From Collimonas silvisoli (lineage in GTDB: Bacteria > Pseudomonadota > Gammaproteobacteria > Burkholderiales > Burkholderiaceae_D), in contig NZ_JAGQEG010000060.1 in NCBI RefSeq assembly GCF_018305005.1, positions 1 through 37,043 of the forward strand: DNA of 37,043 bases, read 5' to 3'. The position numbers and the translations under genes are program-made. Of the stretch, positions 13,970 through 24,109 are shown piece by piece. Below the pieces are notes generated by a model, which saw only the letters and a program-made list of their open reading frames with translations, was not told the origin of the DNA and made no database searches. How positions within the stretch are numbered: position 1 is the stretch's first letter; every line of letters starts with the position of its first letter.

Positions 13970-14884
13970 ATGCAATTTTTCTTTGAGGTGGCGCTCAGCG
14001 GCTTGCTTTCGGGCCTGATGTATTCGCTGGTGGCGCTCGGTTTCGTACTGATCTACAAGGCTTCCGGGGTGTTCAATTTCGCCCAGGGTGCAATGGTCTA
14101 TTTTGCGGCGCTGGCGGTGGTCGGCCTGATGGATAAAGGATGGCCCATGTGGGCGGCGATTATCGGCGCCTTCCTGGTGATGCTGGCGGTCGCTGTCGCG
14201 ACCGAACGCCTGGTGCTGCGCAAGCTGGTCAACCAGCCGCCGATCACCTTATTCATGGCGACCATCGGCCTGGCCTTTTTCCTGGAAGGATTGGGGCCGA
14301 TGCTGTTCGGCAGCGAAGTGCGGGCGATCAACCTGGGTATCGTGGACGAGCCGATTGCGTCGGTCATGGATAGCTTGGGCATCGGCATTTCGAAATTCGA
14401 TCTGTTCGCCTCGGGCATGGTGATCGGGCTGGTGTTGCTGCTGGCCCTGTTTTTCCAGAGAACCAAGGTCGGCCGCGCCTTGCGGGCGGTGGCCGACGAT
14501 CATCAGGCGGCGCTCTCGCTGGGGATTCCCTTGCGCCACATCTGGGTCATCGTCTGGGGCGTGGCCGGGTTTGTGGCCCTGGTGGCCGGTTTGCTGTGGG
14601 GCTCGCGCAACGGCGTCCAGTTTGCCTTGACGATGACCGCCTTGAAAGCCTTGCCGGTTCTGATCCTCGGCGGCTTTACCTCGATTCCGGGGGCGATTGC
14701 CGGCGGCTTGATTATCGGCGTATCGGAAAAACTGGCCGAGATCTACATCCCGCCGGTGATGCAAGACATGTTCGGCGGTAATTTCGGCGGCATAGAAGGA
14801 TGGTTCCCCTATGTGTTCGCATTGCTGTTTTTATTGGTGCGGCCGGAAGGTTTGTTCGGTGAGCGGCATATCGATCGCGTGTAG
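13970..14884 (+). CDS. ABC transporter permease, LivH type
   Basis: Integral inner-membrane permease, 304 residues with about eight hydrophobic segments. It shows the LivH-typical start (LSGLLSGLMYSLVALGFVLIYKASGVFNFAQG) spread over residues 9-41, the cytoplasmic coupling region TKVGRALRAVADD, and the C-terminal ending VRPEGLFGER. A good GGAGG ribosome-binding site precedes the ATG. It would pair with the LivM-type permease encoded next. The imported compound is unknown; LIV-type systems also carry aromatic acids, amides and urea. Confidence 0.93.
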   Translation: MQFFFEVALSGLLSGLMYSLVALGFVLIYKASGVFNFAQGAMVYFAALAVVGLMDKGWPMWAAIIGAFLVMLAVAVATERLVLRKLVNQPPITLFMATIGLAFFLEGLGPMLFGSEVRAINLGIVDEPIASVMDSLGIGISKFDLFASGMVIGLVLLLALFFQRTKVGRALRAVADDHQAALSLGIPLRHIWVIVWGVAGFVALVAGLLWGSRNGVQFALTMTALKALPVLILGGFTSIPGAIAGGLIIGVSEKLAEIYIPPVMQDMFGGNFGGIEGWFPYVFALLFLLVRPEGLFGERHIDRV

Positions 14885-20340: not shown

Positions 20341-20423
20341 TCAGGCGGCGGACCAGACGGTAGAAACGATGATTTGAGGTGAAGGCGTCCCGACCCAGTT
20401 GTGTTGCCGGAATATTTCAACAG

Positions 20424-21887
20424 CTACAACAGCTTGATTGGAATGCGGCTGGGATCACGTCTGCTGGTGGTTTGTTGCGCAATGCTTTTGCGGATGGCCG
20501 TTAGTCGTTTGTCGTCGCGATAGAGCAGGTTGTAACTTTCAAATGGAATCATTTTTCCATCAGCTTGGGCAAAATGTATGCAGGATTTTTTCAAGGCGCG
20601 AACATCCAAAGAATATGCATCCATAAATTGCACAATCAAAACCCGAAACACGTTGTCGTAACGCAGCGTCTGCGGCGCAGAAATTAAAGGCAGGCAACAC
20701 ATTAATTCAGAAAGACAGTTGGCTTGTGATTCCGGGGAATGGTTAGTCGAAAACAGCTTAAATATCTGGTCTTTCATATTCTTCTTGAGCGCTTCGTCGC
20801 GCTCAAAAACTATCGTGTTGCCGCTGCCTTCCACTAAAGATTGTGGATCAAGATATCGTGTCAGCGGGACAGTTTTTTCGTCGGTTTTGAGAGCGTAAGC
20901 CATTGCCAGCGTATCGGGATTGCAAGGCACCGGGACGATATCTTGCAAGGTGAATACACTGGTTTGCTCTGCGATCTTACGACGTATTTCTGAAACGGTC
21001 AGGCGATGCAGGCGAGGATCGTAACTTTCTACACGGCCAGCATCTTGAATCGGCTGCAAGGTGACGCCGCGGACACACGGTTGCGTCAAGGCGAAGTCGA
21101 TAATGGCGCCAATTTCATCGTCATTCAAACCTTTTTTCAGCGTCACAACCAAAGTGGTGGACAAGCCAGCCGCATTCAGATTTTTCAGTGCTTGCAGTCG
21201 GATACGGCTTAAATCGGCGCCGCGTAATACCTTATGTACTTCTGCGCGCATGGAGTCGAATTGCAAATACACTTCTATTCCTGGCGCATAGCTTGCCAGA
21301 CGTTGCACAAACTCAGGATCTTGCGCCAATACGATGCCGTTGGTGTTGACCATCACATGTTTGATCGGGCGCGCTTTGGCAGCATCGAGAATTTCCCAGA
21401 ATTGCGGATGTAAGGTGGGCTCGCCGCCGGACAATTGCATGACATCGGCCTCGCCTTCATTGGCCACAACCGCATCAAGCATCTTAATGACGTCAGCCAG
21501 GGGTTTATGCTGTTCCCGATGAGTGCCGCTTTCCGCATAACAAACGGGGCAATTTAAATTGCAGTTGTCAGTAATCTCAACGATGGATAAGCAAGAGTGC
21601 TGCATATGATCTGGACACAGGCCGCAATCATAGGGGCAGCCGTATTCCATTTTAGTGTTAAACGTTTGCGGCATTTCCGGATGTTTGACGAACACCTCGC
21701 GGCACAAACGGTAATACTCGATATCATCGCTGACCAGCACACGCTCGCTGCCGTGCGCAGTACACCACTTATCCATGTAGACATGCTCATCTTTAAAGAT
21801 GATCTTGGCTTCAACCGGATGCAGGCAGGTTGAACAGACCGAAGTGGTCGTGTCGTAAAAAAGGTAAGGGCGGATTTTACGCGTCAT
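20424..21887 (-). CDS. Radical SAM protein of the tetraether / membrane-spanning lipid synthase-like (Tes/MJ0619) family
   Basis: A 487-residue radical SAM enzyme. The N-terminus has Cys18-x2-Cys21 and Cys42, resembling a rubredoxin-like iron site. A second cluster motif CPYDCGLC (Cys84, 88, 91) is followed by HSCL (Cys99), then the radical SAM motif CNLNCPVC (Cys109, 113, 116) and the GGEP motif (154-157). The layout GCPYDCGLC, then HMQHSCL, EITDNCNLNCPVC is characteristic of the archaeal Tes/MJ0619 family and of bacterial membrane-spanning-lipid synthases, which couple or modify unactivated lipid carbons. A CCLP segment lies near residue 397. The start overlaps the stop of the upstream gene by four bases (ATGA). 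Base composition is more AT-rich than the flanking genes. Family assignment is strong, the actual reaction is unknown. Confidence 0.85.
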   Translation of the reverse strand: MTRKIRPYLFYDTTTSVCSTCLHPVEAKIIFKDEHVYMDKWCTAHGSERVLVSDDIEYYRLCREVFVKHPEMPQTFNTKMEYGCPYDCGLCPDHMQHSCLSIVEITDNCNLNCPVCYAESGTHREQHKPLADVIKMLDAVVANEGEADVMQLSGGEPTLHPQFWEILDAAKARPIKHVMVNTNGIVLAQDPEFVQRLASYAPGIEVYLQFDSMRAEVHKVLRGADLSRIRLQALKNLNAAGLSTTLVVTLKKGLNDDEIGAIIDFALTQPCVRGVTLQPIQDAGRVESYDPRLHRLTVSEIRRKIAEQTSVFTLQDIVPVPCNPDTLAMAYALKTDEKTVPLTRYLDPQSLVEGSGNTIVFERDEALKKNMKDQIFKLFSTNHSPESQANCLSELMCCLPLISAPQTLRYDNVFRVLIVQFMDAYSLDVRALKKSCIHFAQADGKMIPFESYNLLYRDDKRLTAIRKSIAQQTTSRRDPSRIPIKLL

Positions 21888-22702
21888 CGTTGGCTCGGGT
21901 TAGGCGGTGCGGGATATTGTTGTTTTGATTCGATGACAGCTTGGCGTAGCATTGCCATTCTTTCTTGTGCCGCTTGCATGTCTGCTGGAGACATAGATGC
22001 TTGTAGTTTGGTGAGGCTGTCGCTGACCGGCAGCATCAAGAGGAAAGCTGACGTTTTAATTTTAGCTGCTGTATCAATTTCTTTTGAGACTTGAAATCTG
22101 TATCTAATCACGGTGTGGAATGGATATCTGCAGTCCAGGATACTGCGCGCAAGCCAAAGGTCGGCTTGTTGTATGTCTTGCCTGATAATCCCGCTGTTGC
22201 GATATATTTCACTGACGTCAAGCGCAGGAAAGCGATTGAAAAACACAGGTGAAGGGCTGCAAGAACGTGTGGATGATCGTTTTAATAATTCTATTCCGCG
22301 CGGGGGATCTGGAAGTAATTGTTCTGCGCTGAGATCTCTCCCATAATACTGTCGATTGGAGCCATTGAGTAAAAGCCAGCCTAAGCCATATTCCGCGGGA
22401 CCATATTGTTTGGCTGCCGCTTGTTCAAGTAAAGAGATGCCTCTTGGGATGTCTCTTTCCAGGCTTGGCGAACCATTTACATATTCCATGCCAAGTTGTG
22501 TCATAGCCTCCAGATCACCGCGACTGGCCGCTACTTTATATCCTTCAATTTTTGTTCTCTGCATTTCTGCATTCGCACGTTGTGCATTTTTTTGTTGCAC
22601 GCTGTTGACGATGGAGGCAGTAATACAACCCGTACCACCAATCAAACTCAAACTCACTATCAGTAATGCCGCACGTGATCGATCACGGGAAAAGAGGCGC
22701 AT
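21884..22702 (-). CDS. Exported Sel1-repeat-like protein, putative lipoprotein
   Basis: A 272-residue protein with a basic N-terminus and hydrophobic signal ending GGTGC (Cys26). The lipobox is imperfect (Gly at -3), so lipidation is possible rather than certain. Residues about 50-145 contain one or two Sel1/TPR-like helical pairs (ASRGDLEAMTQLGMEYVNG, then ISLLEQAAAKQYGPAEYGLG). The second is interrupted by an insertion before GIELLKRSS. The rest is not recognised. Its start lies inside the 3' end of the Lgt-like gene (20-base overlap), and its stop overlaps the radical SAM start, so the three are translationally linked. A scaffold or partner role in the envelope is inferred from context only. 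Confidence 0.7.
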   Translation of the reverse strand: MRLFSRDRSRAALLIVSLSLIGGTGCITASIVNSVQQKNAQRANAEMQRTKIEGYKVAASRGDLEAMTQLGMEYVNGSPSLERDIPRGISLLEQAAAKQYGPAEYGLGWLLLNGSNRQYYGRDLSAEQLLPDPPRGIELLKRSSTRSCSPSPVFFNRFPALDVSEIYRNSGIIRQDIQQADLWLARSILDCRYPFHTVIRYRFQVSKEIDTAAKIKTSAFLLMLPVSDSLTKLQASMSPADMQAAQERMAMLRQAVIESKQQYPAPPNPSQR

Positions 22703-23450
22703 TTTTTTTATAATTTAAAAATTGTTTGATTACAAACGGGAGATAGCACAGTAAGGCCAATAGACACATGATCTGTATGCCGCTAAGACCACCGGCATAT
22801 TCATAGGGAACCGGTTTGATGCCATCGATCAGTAAGCGCCACAGTAAATAGCCCGATAGATAAAATTTGAAAAGAAGGCCAGGACTTTCGCGCCAGCGTT
22901 TTTGAAAAAGCAAAATGACGCCGCCCCAAATTAATACAAAGAGAATGTCGTACAGTTGAGTGGGGTGGCGAAAGATGCCGTCACCAAAGTCGACGCCCCA
23001 GGGCATGCGGGTGGGTACGCCATAAGTGCCGTCGTGCAGCCCCGCCAGAAAACAACCGATGCGCCCGATGGCAGTGCCCAACATCAATGGCAAGACAAAG
23101 TTGTCGCCCGTTGAGCGTTGGGCGCCGATCAGTTTCTTGGCAATCTCTACGCCACACAGCCCACCCAGCAAACCACCGACGATAGATTGTCCGGACATCC
23201 AGAGATTGATGTCTAAGGAAGATGACGCCCATAACTGAGGAAACTCCATCCAGAACACTAACTTGTTTCCGATCGCTGCACCGAGTATGCAGCCGATGAT
23301 GACCGCGTATTGTCCTGGTTCCAAGATGCCAGAGAGGCCTTGATGGGCACGTTGCCAACGATATAGTTGGACGCCGGATGCGATGGCTGCCCATTCAAAA
23401 AACAGATGGATGAGATGCGCAGTCGTGCTGGAAAAGGCGACCGCTTTCAT
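22683..23450 (-). CDS. Lgt-like (prolipoprotein diacylglyceryl transferase family) membrane protein lacking canonical active-site residues
   Basis: A polytopic membrane protein of 255 residues with about seven hydrophobic segments. The Lgt-family core is visible: GQSIVGGLLGG (87-97), AIGRIGCF (127-134), RHPTQLYD (161-168) and LLWRLLIDGIKP (202-213). Arg130 and Arg205 correspond to E. coli Lgt Arg143 and Arg239. The HGG histidine (His103 in E. coli) is replaced by Val91, and the GRLGN asparagine by Cys133, so this is unlikely to be the housekeeping enzyme. ATG 23450 shares its A with the TAA stop of the preceding gene (TAATG), the hallmark of translational coupling. A longer frame upstream overlaps that gene and is not credible. 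It probably handles a glycerolipid substrate for the same pathway as the radical SAM enzyme (inference). Confidence 0.8.
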   Translation of the reverse strand: MKAVAFSSTTAHLIHLFFEWAAIASGVQLYRWQRAHQGLSGILEPGQYAVIIGCILGAAIGNKLVFWMEFPQLWASSSLDINLWMSGQSIVGGLLGGLCGVEIAKKLIGAQRSTGDNFVLPLMLGTAIGRIGCFLAGLHDGTYGVPTRMPWGVDFGDGIFRHPTQLYDILFVLIWGGVILLFQKRWRESPGLLFKFYLSGYLLWRLLIDGIKPVPYEYAGGLSGIQIMCLLALLCYLPFVIKQFLNYKKNAPLFP

Positions 23451-23719
23451 TATTTGGATTGGTCTTGATCTGGCTGTGTTGCAAACTCCGGTTTCTTTGC
23501 AATACGAAACACACTGCCATATTTGGCAATGCGGTATATAACGAAGCACAGCGCGATACTGATACCTACTCCTGCGCACCCAAGGAGAAAAATAGGCAGG
23601 CCATCTCCACTGGTTTTGTAGCTACTGCCAGAAGCAATCCCTAGCAAACCACATAAGCCAAAGCCGACCATCAGTACTAAAAAAAACATAATACTAAGTG
23701 CTTTGAACAGCGTTTTCAT
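23450..23719 (-). CDS. Small two-helix membrane protein, unknown function
   Basis: An 89-residue protein with two predicted membrane helices (about residues 5-30 and 40-64) joined by a short polar loop (GSSYKTSGDG), and a charged C-terminal tail (KKPEFATQPDQDQSK). I do not recognise the family. It is the first gene of the minus-strand AT-richer operon, and its stop codon shares a base with the start of the Lgt-like gene. A perfect TATAAT -10 element (complement of 23758-23763) lies 38 bases upstream of its ATG, which supports the operon starting here. It may be an accessory subunit of the Lgt-like protein. Confidence 0.65.
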   Translation of the reverse strand: MKTLFKALSIMFFLVLMVGFGLCGLLGIASGSSYKTSGDGLPIFLLGCAGVGISIALCFVIYRIAKYGSVFRIAKKPEFATQPDQDQSK

Positions 23720-23757
23720 GGGAGCCTTGCTGGAATTGAATTTGGCAGAGAAGATTG

Positions 23758-23794
23758 ATTATATAGCCTTTAGTTGTCATGAAGTAATTTCATG
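23758..23794 (-). promoter_or_regulatory. Promoter with overlapping palindrome for the radical SAM/Lgt-like operon
   Basis: On the minus strand TATAAT (complement of 23758-23763) is a perfect -10. The -35 position is occupied by a perfect inverted repeat CATGAA-N5-TTCATG (23778-23794) instead of a good TTGACA. A weak -35 under a palindrome suggests regulated expression (activation or repression) by an unknown factor. Confidence 0.5.
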
Positions 23795-24109
23795 TACAGG
23801 TTCATCGGCAAGTCTTGAAGACATCCGGATGCACATTGGGGGCGTTTTTTTACGCGTTCCATCGGGATGATTTTGTTAGATGAACCCGAATTAATGCGTT
23901 GCCGGCCTGTATACCAGGCCGGGTATTTTGGGCAAAGTCCCGGCTGCTTATGAAATAGTTGATAAAATGCGCGGTGTTGGCGTTGGCGAAAACGCAATCC
24001 AATGATGCTGCAATAGCCTGGTTCGGCAACCCCTCTGTCGGTGCGTTTCGTGGCTTATTTTTATGCGGCAATTTTAGTGTGAGAACAATTTATGACGGAG
24101 TTAACAAGA
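23795..24109. other. Intergenic region between the AT-rich operon and the SlyB-like gene
   Basis: About 315 bases without a credible gene. It contains a strong hairpin, CCGGCCTG-TATAC-CAGGCCGG at 23902-23922 (perfect 8-bp stem), followed on the plus strand by GTATTTT. That could be a terminator or a boundary structure. The presumed promoter of the SlyB-like lipoprotein lies in the last 100 bases. I see no tRNA or attachment-site duplication. Confidence 0.5.

Follow-up and report, generated by a model that had tools for sequence, protein, structure and literature searches.

A four-gene operon of Collimonas silvisoli, carried on the minus strand of a 37,043-nucleotide stretch (contig NZ_JAGQEG010000060.1, hereafter the window), pairs a radical S-adenosylmethionine (SAM) enzyme resembling the archaeal tetraether lipid synthase Tes with a paralogue of the prolipoprotein diacylglyceryl transferase Lgt, and we find that this pair recurs across bacterial phyla and that a small membrane protein with a conserved cysteine recurs around it. 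We propose that the three components form a mobile envelope cassette in which the Lgt-like enzyme would transfer a lipid onto the outward-facing cysteine and the radical SAM enzyme would alter the lipid chain, a reading to which we assign a probability of roughly 45%. Two enzymes of lipid chemistry and an outward cysteine in a membrane helix jointly point to lipid transfer onto that residue; what the data show directly is gene linkage, protein folds, conserved residues, a charge-based topology trend and insertion of the cassette.

A scan of named genomes for relatives of the radical SAM enzyme returned at least 579, and the best 80 were kept as loci. Among these best 80 the hosts belong to Pseudomonadota, Acidobacteriota, Bacillota, Myxococcota, Planctomycetota, Verrucomicrobiota, Omnitrophota and Elusimicrobiota and include many mesophiles. 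We refer to an Lgt-like protein encoded beside the radical SAM gene as a couplet Lgt, and a profile built from such proteins matches 76 of the 80 loci, 72 of them upstream on the same strand and four on the opposite strand (L079, L080, L098, L119). The two enzyme genes touch, or lie closer than the length of a gene, in most of the 72. No profile match occurs in L067, L076, L083 or L112; L067 and L112 start at a contig edge and L083 ends 0.8 kb past the gene, leaving L076 as the clear exception, and the genomes of L067, L083 and L112 hold an extra weak PF01790 match less than 2 kb from the start of another contig. Over all 100 loci fetched by then, a same-strand Lgt-like partner is present in 92, a count in which L043/L062, L047/L107 and L048/L109 are the same places entered twice and from which L113, whose gene runs off its contig, is left out.

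The association also holds in reverse, as 20 of 21 couplet-type Lgts have a radical SAM gene next to them. These comprise nine found in 300 genomes of the order (9/9 paired), four plasmid records (4/4, among nine records holding a radical SAM relative) and eight further genomes of the class (7/8, with 12 kb fetched). The initial annotation had staked its proposal on the Lgt-like gene being a constant partner, and the partnership is near-constant in both directions. Its view of a mesophilic betaproteobacterium as an unexpected host did not hold, given the mesophiles among the hosts and the 456 bacterial Tes homologues, Proteobacteria included, already reported (PMC8941075). The unit is nevertheless rare (10 of 349 genomes of the phylum, C. 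silvisoli included). All 37 genomes checked for PF01790 carry at least two matches; one of 31 genomes in a phylum sample, G366 (1.5 Mb, recorded at 100% completeness), gave no match to this family and hence no Lgt by this search.

Fold and conserved residues of the two enzymes

The radical SAM protein has a zinc ribbon at its N-terminus, a CX3CX2C radical SAM site and further cysteine sites. It aligns with Methanocaldococcus jannaschii Tes over residues 12–458 of 487 (E 1.5e-63, 30% identity), and its predicted fold (mean predicted local distance difference test score 78.1, with 76 residues under 50) is that of Tes over the whole enzyme (7tom/7tol, TM-score 0.76, E 2e-34). Counterparts of Tes C29/C32/C53, C93/C97/C100 and C118/C122/C125, which form the zinc-ribbon, first auxiliary and radical SAM sites, are present in 99–101 of 101 aligned rows. 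Four further cysteines that are absent from M. jannaschii Tes (C99, C322, C397 and C398) are likewise present in 99–101 of 101 rows, some of them also in the methyltransferase-linked enzymes L148 and L149. The NCBIfam model for Tes (NF045702) scores 270.3 bits against a cut-off of 450, with two other members at 265 and 295, and three further proteins also fall below the Tes and TrsS cut-offs. The zinc-ribbon family PF23545 matches three of 14 controls, all archaea, and has no match in Thermotoga maritima, a source of the lipid synthase Mss.

As to the branch position raised in the initial annotation, a 50-row quick tree places the Lgt-linked enzymes and their close kin in a single group (46 rows, Shimodaira–Hasegawa-like approximate likelihood-ratio support 97), with Tes, L148, L149 and a paralogue in G023 outside it; several outside branches are very long and the placement is therefore unsure. 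Plasmids of Mycolicibacterium vanbaalenii and haloarchaea also carry Tes-like radical SAM genes (L148, L149 and L150); in each case the gene that follows encodes a methyltransferase, and no Lgt gene is annotated adjacent. The radical SAM profile match contains one in-frame TGA in L134 (G584:C23) and one in-frame TAA in L138 (G407:C60).

The Lgt-like protein adopts the fold of E. coli Lgt by structure comparison (PDB 5azb), and the search rows ranked under 5azb are unrelated helical proteins. Residues R143, G154, Y235 and R239 (E. coli numbering) are kept in all 73 couplet proteins, and R143, Y235 and R239 are donor-site residues of Lgt. Three other positions change in these 73 proteins, with Y26 replaced by histidine in 98%, H103 by valine in 80% and N146 by cysteine in 100%, and the window protein carries all three substitutions. 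Cys133 of the Lgt-like enzyme is invariant. Canonical Lgts for comparison came from 22 of 30 loci that passed a filter for HGG and GRxGN. The filter itself makes H103 and N146 invariant in that reference set, and a result can be read only from the couplet proteins. The protein scores 47.4 bits with TIGR00544, below the 118.9-bit cut-off, and a normal Lgt is encoded on a separate contig of the same genome (257.6 bits compared to 84.3 for the operon copy).

A small membrane protein with a conserved cysteine

Reading of open reading frames by eye identified a recurring membrane protein around the gene pair, mostly of 60–150 residues, in two types. Type 1, found in the window, many Pseudomonadota and some Acidobacteriota, has two helices and, where helix 1 ends, a cysteine preceded by a Gly-rich stretch; the window protein reads GFGLCG at the outer end of helix 1, with the Cys23 codon at about 23651–23653. 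Type 2, found in Bacillota, Dyella kin, some Acidobacteriota and Actinomycetota, places the cysteine close to where the last helix ends, as in NAACFG, and only one glycine and this cysteine are kept in 23 of 23 rows. Rows of both alignments were chosen by eye, and those of type 1 partly for the motif. The cysteine, missed in the initial annotation, is the most constant feature of the small protein. Lysine and arginine make up 47 of 347 residues before the type-1 cysteine, 18 of 540 after it and 113 of 532 at the C-terminus, and in type 2 account for 55 of 276 before the last helix and 5 of 231 after the cysteine. This charge bias is a trend that predicts the cysteine on the outer face in both types.

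To compare these proteins independently of the motif, we collected every small same-strand open reading frame with two or more transmembrane helices within 1.5 kb of the pair, which 54 of 100 loci yielded. All 70 such proteins contain cysteine, and in 57 it lies at an outer helix end by rule, compared to 19 and 10, respectively, of 27 control reading frames elsewhere in the same loci (Fisher p 5e-5, with loci not independent). An automatic pass gave a helix-cysteine candidate for 62 of 100 loci and no candidate at all for 33; it loses genes that overlap over-long lgt reading frames, and type-1 genes are seen by hand in a number of the 33. Among loci fetched after the pattern had been seen, Mycobacterium branderi carries two small proteins and Persicobacter and Nonomuraea one each, and six of seven new pairs pass preset criteria, five automatically and L198, which the filter had hidden, on a second look. 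We regard the conserved cysteine as a fairly probable lipid acceptor.

Pfam and NCBIfam searches with sets of nine, six and six small proteins covering both types gave nothing over cut-off. The small protein often occurs in tandem copies, with three in Granulicella (L104:6103-6877), two in M. branderi (L152:3023-3881) and several candidates in Psychrobacter (L090:3429-5073). A separate locus (L205:3612-7619) encodes an Lgt-like protein scoring 126 bits to the couplet profile; the 12 kb retrieved contain no radical SAM gene. Adjoining the Lgt-like gene are genes for a small protein that ends in a cysteine-bearing helix, for a fatty acid desaturase (PF00487) and for a predicted metal-dependent hydrolase (PF10118). 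This is perhaps a sister system, and its arrangement suggests that the small protein goes with the Lgt-like enzyme.

The operon and its insertion within the genus

Features of the operon and cassette in the window
Feature	Position	Strand	Description
Two-helix small membrane protein gene	23450..23719	-	89 aa; two helices; proposed lipid acceptor
Lgt-like membrane transferase gene	22683..23450	-	255 aa; PF01790
Sel1-like protein gene	21884..22702	-	272 aa; one Sel1 repeat, PF08238
Tes-like radical SAM enzyme gene	20424..21887	-	487 aa; PF04055 and zinc ribbon PF23545
Inserted cassette, approximate extent	20345..23925		from the short-chain dehydrogenase/reductase (SDR) gene to the glycine-zipper lipoprotein gene; edges inferred, left edge uncertain by ~10-20 bases

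The four genes are tightly coupled, through a TAATG junction between the small-protein and Lgt-like genes, a 20-base overlap between the Lgt-like and Sel1-like genes and an ATGA junction between the Sel1-like and radical SAM genes. Between species of the genus the ratio of nonsynonymous to synonymous substitution is 0.03–0.06 for the radical SAM gene, 0.07–0.09 for lgt, 0.17–0.25 for sel1 and 0.13–0.38 for the small-protein gene; these are therefore selected genes and not chance reading frames. The closest named loci are Collimonas L049 and L050 (97–99% protein identity). Promoter and terminator scans of the region gave no excess over shuffled sequence.

The coding span (20424–23719) is 48.4% G+C compared to 54.9–60.3% in 270 overlapping stretches of equal length from the rest of the window. 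The radical SAM gene is present in six of 15 genomes of the genus, C. silvisoli included, at 97–100% identity, and the five other carriers hold all four genes between the same SDR and glycine-zipper lipoprotein genes. Eight of the nine genomes without the cassette were located through the neighbouring KBL gene, and G001 was not located. Five of these eight have an empty site (L190, L191, L192, L194, L196), where the gap between the SDR and lipoprotein genes is about 200–230 bp compared to 3,751 bp in the window; for the other three, picking of reading frames gave no resolved site. Homology resumes at about 23926, so the insert measures about 3.57 kb. Synonymous divergence between species is 0.12–0.47 for the cassette genes (0.14–0.31 for the radical SAM gene) and 0.45–0.58 for the flanking SDR and KBL genes, in three comparisons only and with ranges that touch at the small gene; this lower divergence suggests that the cassette spread within the genus at a later time.

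What the initial annotation saw in the sequence is confirmed, and its interpretation is partly supported: the four reading frames and their junctions are present, its base counts are exact (24/60 G+C at 22861–22920, 36/60 at 14641–14700), sequence and fold match Tes, the Lgt is a paralogue of a normal copy elsewhere in the genome, and low G+C together with empty sites in related genomes agrees with acquired DNA.

The longest direct match between the cassette edges is 8 bases, no excess over chance as an integration repeat (shuffled mean 7.4). A GC-rich palindrome of eight pairs lies at the right edge (23902–23922), and the number of such palindromes in the region is not above chance. We rejected a viral origin, one scan of viral contigs having found no relative, and likewise a defence system, the PADLOC matches extending over the common radical SAM core alone (pVip, 53.7 bits, residues 103–219).

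Proposed mechanism and relation to known systems

In the proposed mechanism, the small protein would insert so that a helix presents the conserved cysteine at its periplasmic end, and the Lgt-like enzyme would move a diacylglyceryl-type group, probably from phosphatidylglycerol, onto that residue. The acceptor site would be lipobox-like but mostly non-standard and presumably uncleaved. The Tes-like enzyme would modify the lipid chain, either ahead of transfer or following it, through radical C–C bond formation or some other change, and any order of the two steps is one we infer. Additional lipobox-bearing proteins, the Sel1-like protein among them, may also serve as clients. The Tes fold leads us to favour a lipid chain over a peptide as the radical SAM target; we put a lipid substrate at about even odds.

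Several observations weigh against this proposal. Lgt is described as having its active site on the periplasmic side (PMC4728403) and the radical SAM enzyme presumably lies inside, so that the two steps would need a flipped or premodified lipid. E. coli Lgt requires Y26, H103 and N146, positions that are altered in the couplet proteins, and the Lgt-like enzyme might therefore be inactive or act otherwise; N146C/Y26H Lgts are described as presumed low in activity and H103 as not universal among Lgts (PMC13251419). In the radical SAM enzyme the residues equivalent to Tes C358, C475 and C490 (M. jannaschii numbering; presumed ligands) are cysteine in 23, 0 and 0 of 101 rows, and from this differing C-terminal set we infer a re-wired site; in the quick tree the Lgt-linked clade is not nested in Tes. 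The automatic pass leaves 38 of 100 loci without a small cysteine protein (some lost by the filter), one small protein in L043 has no cysteine, and L201 fails the preset motif, with Cys-Gly at its helix end and no preceding glycine. The control set is small (27), the loci are related and the helix calls are simple hydropathy. The lipobox consensus [LVI][ASTVI][GAS]C (PMC4728403) fits none of 25 type-1 rows and four of 23 type-2 rows, and the window sequence FGLC does not conform.

The alternative that survives best, which we consider unlikely, is that the radical SAM enzyme is a peptide maturase acting on the small protein, for example at or near its cysteine, and that the Lgt-like enzyme then lipidates, anchors or carries the product. 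Small, fast-evolving and often tandem proteins beside a radical SAM gene resemble maturase substrates, and the peptide maturases SkfB and SuiB are the next fold matches by E-value after Tes. However, these matches span the radical SAM core only (TM-score 0.34–0.37, SkfB at 0.37), the conserved cysteine is predicted on the outer face, and neither type of small protein matches a Pfam or NCBIfam family over cut-off.

Less likely again is that the enzyme makes membrane-spanning lipids resembling branched glycerol dialkyl glycerol tetraethers (brGDGTs), with the Lgt-like enzyme handing diacylglycerol units between lipids and the small protein as a scaffold. The Tes fold agrees with such a role, as do the proposal of brGDGT synthesis for bacterial Tes homologues (PMC8941075) and the capacity of Tes to bind ester-bonded phosphatidic acid (PMC13274423); yet the enzymes form a group apart from Tes with a different C-terminal cysteine set and scores under the Tes cut-off, and known members of the partner family act on protein cysteines. 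We regard as improbable a membrane-spanning anchor, in which the Lgt-like enzyme would place a diacylglyceryl group on the small-protein cysteine and the radical SAM enzyme would weld one chain of that group tail-to-tail to an inner-leaflet phospholipid; if true, covalent bonds would anchor a protein across the two leaflets.

The Sel1-like protein has a lipobox-like N-terminus ending in GGTGC (cysteine codon at about 22625–22627), and the initial annotation had suggested it as a possible recipient of a modified lipid. That it is the main recipient of the modified lipid is very unlikely: the GGTGC end is kept in Collimonas, Undibacterium and Pseudoduganella relatives, its gene overlaps tightly with both enzyme genes and other lipobox-bearing proteins sit at its position in L058 and L091, but in most of the 72 same-strand loci the enzyme genes touch or are less than a gene apart, its relatives were seen between them in only a few loci and it evolves faster than either. 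The recurring third part is instead the small two-helix protein, and the Sel1-like protein is a lineage-specific accessory and a possible extra client of lipid transfer. The proteins in L058 (6240-7004) and L091 (3351-3905) are unrelated to it and begin with LQAC- and LTAC-bearing N-termini.

We did not find the conserved mobile three-part cassette described as a system in the literature searched (Creative Commons-licensed PMC papers). A region of about 3,500 bp with a radical SAM and an Lgt gene is noted, with no function given, as missing from one Pseudarthrobacter single-cell genome (PMC12010503), and no other naming of the gene pair was found in the available text of those papers; the words 'Lgt', 'lipoprotein' and 'diacylglyceryl' do not occur in the main texts, as available, of PMC8941075 and PMC11868695. 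If true, lipid transfer onto the small-protein cysteine with radical alteration of the chain would constitute a second, dedicated bacterial lipidation route for membrane helices outside the usual lipobox, spread over many phyla alongside normal Lgt. It would also supply a role for Lgt paralogues of the Y26H/N146C type and for some of the Tes homologues in bacteria. Possible tetraether producers have been listed with identity thresholds of 20–30% to Tes (PMC8941075). These thresholds are low enough to admit the Lgt-linked group, whose Acidobacteriota enzymes in L102 and L104 share 32% identity with M. jannaschii Tes. The group may make no tetraethers, a point that calls for caution in the brGDGT field. 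The cassette is compact and therefore directly testable in a laboratory host.

Among known systems, the two enzymes are variants of described families and the small proteins are without one. The bacterial membrane-spanning lipid synthase Mss is reported to share the catalytic architecture of Tes (PMC13274423). The radical SAM (seleno)protein TrsS (NF045646) gives the cassette enzyme its best NCBIfam score, 329.1 bits, yet under the 490-bit cut-off. Compared to the phosphatidylglycerol:prolipoprotein diacylglyceryl transferase Lgt (5azb), the cassette copy is a second PF01790 gene with Y26H, H103 mostly valine and N146C; MSMEG_5408-type second Lgts share Y26H and N146C (PMC13251419), and the available text of that source makes no mention of radical SAM. 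Among the closest known systems to the radical SAM enzyme is Tes/GDGT-MAS (7tol, 7tom), with which it has in common near full-length similarity, the fold and the cysteines of the zinc-ribbon, first auxiliary and radical SAM sites, and from which it differs in its 30% identity, C-terminal cysteine set, Lgt-like and small cysteine-bearing partners and bacterial hosts.

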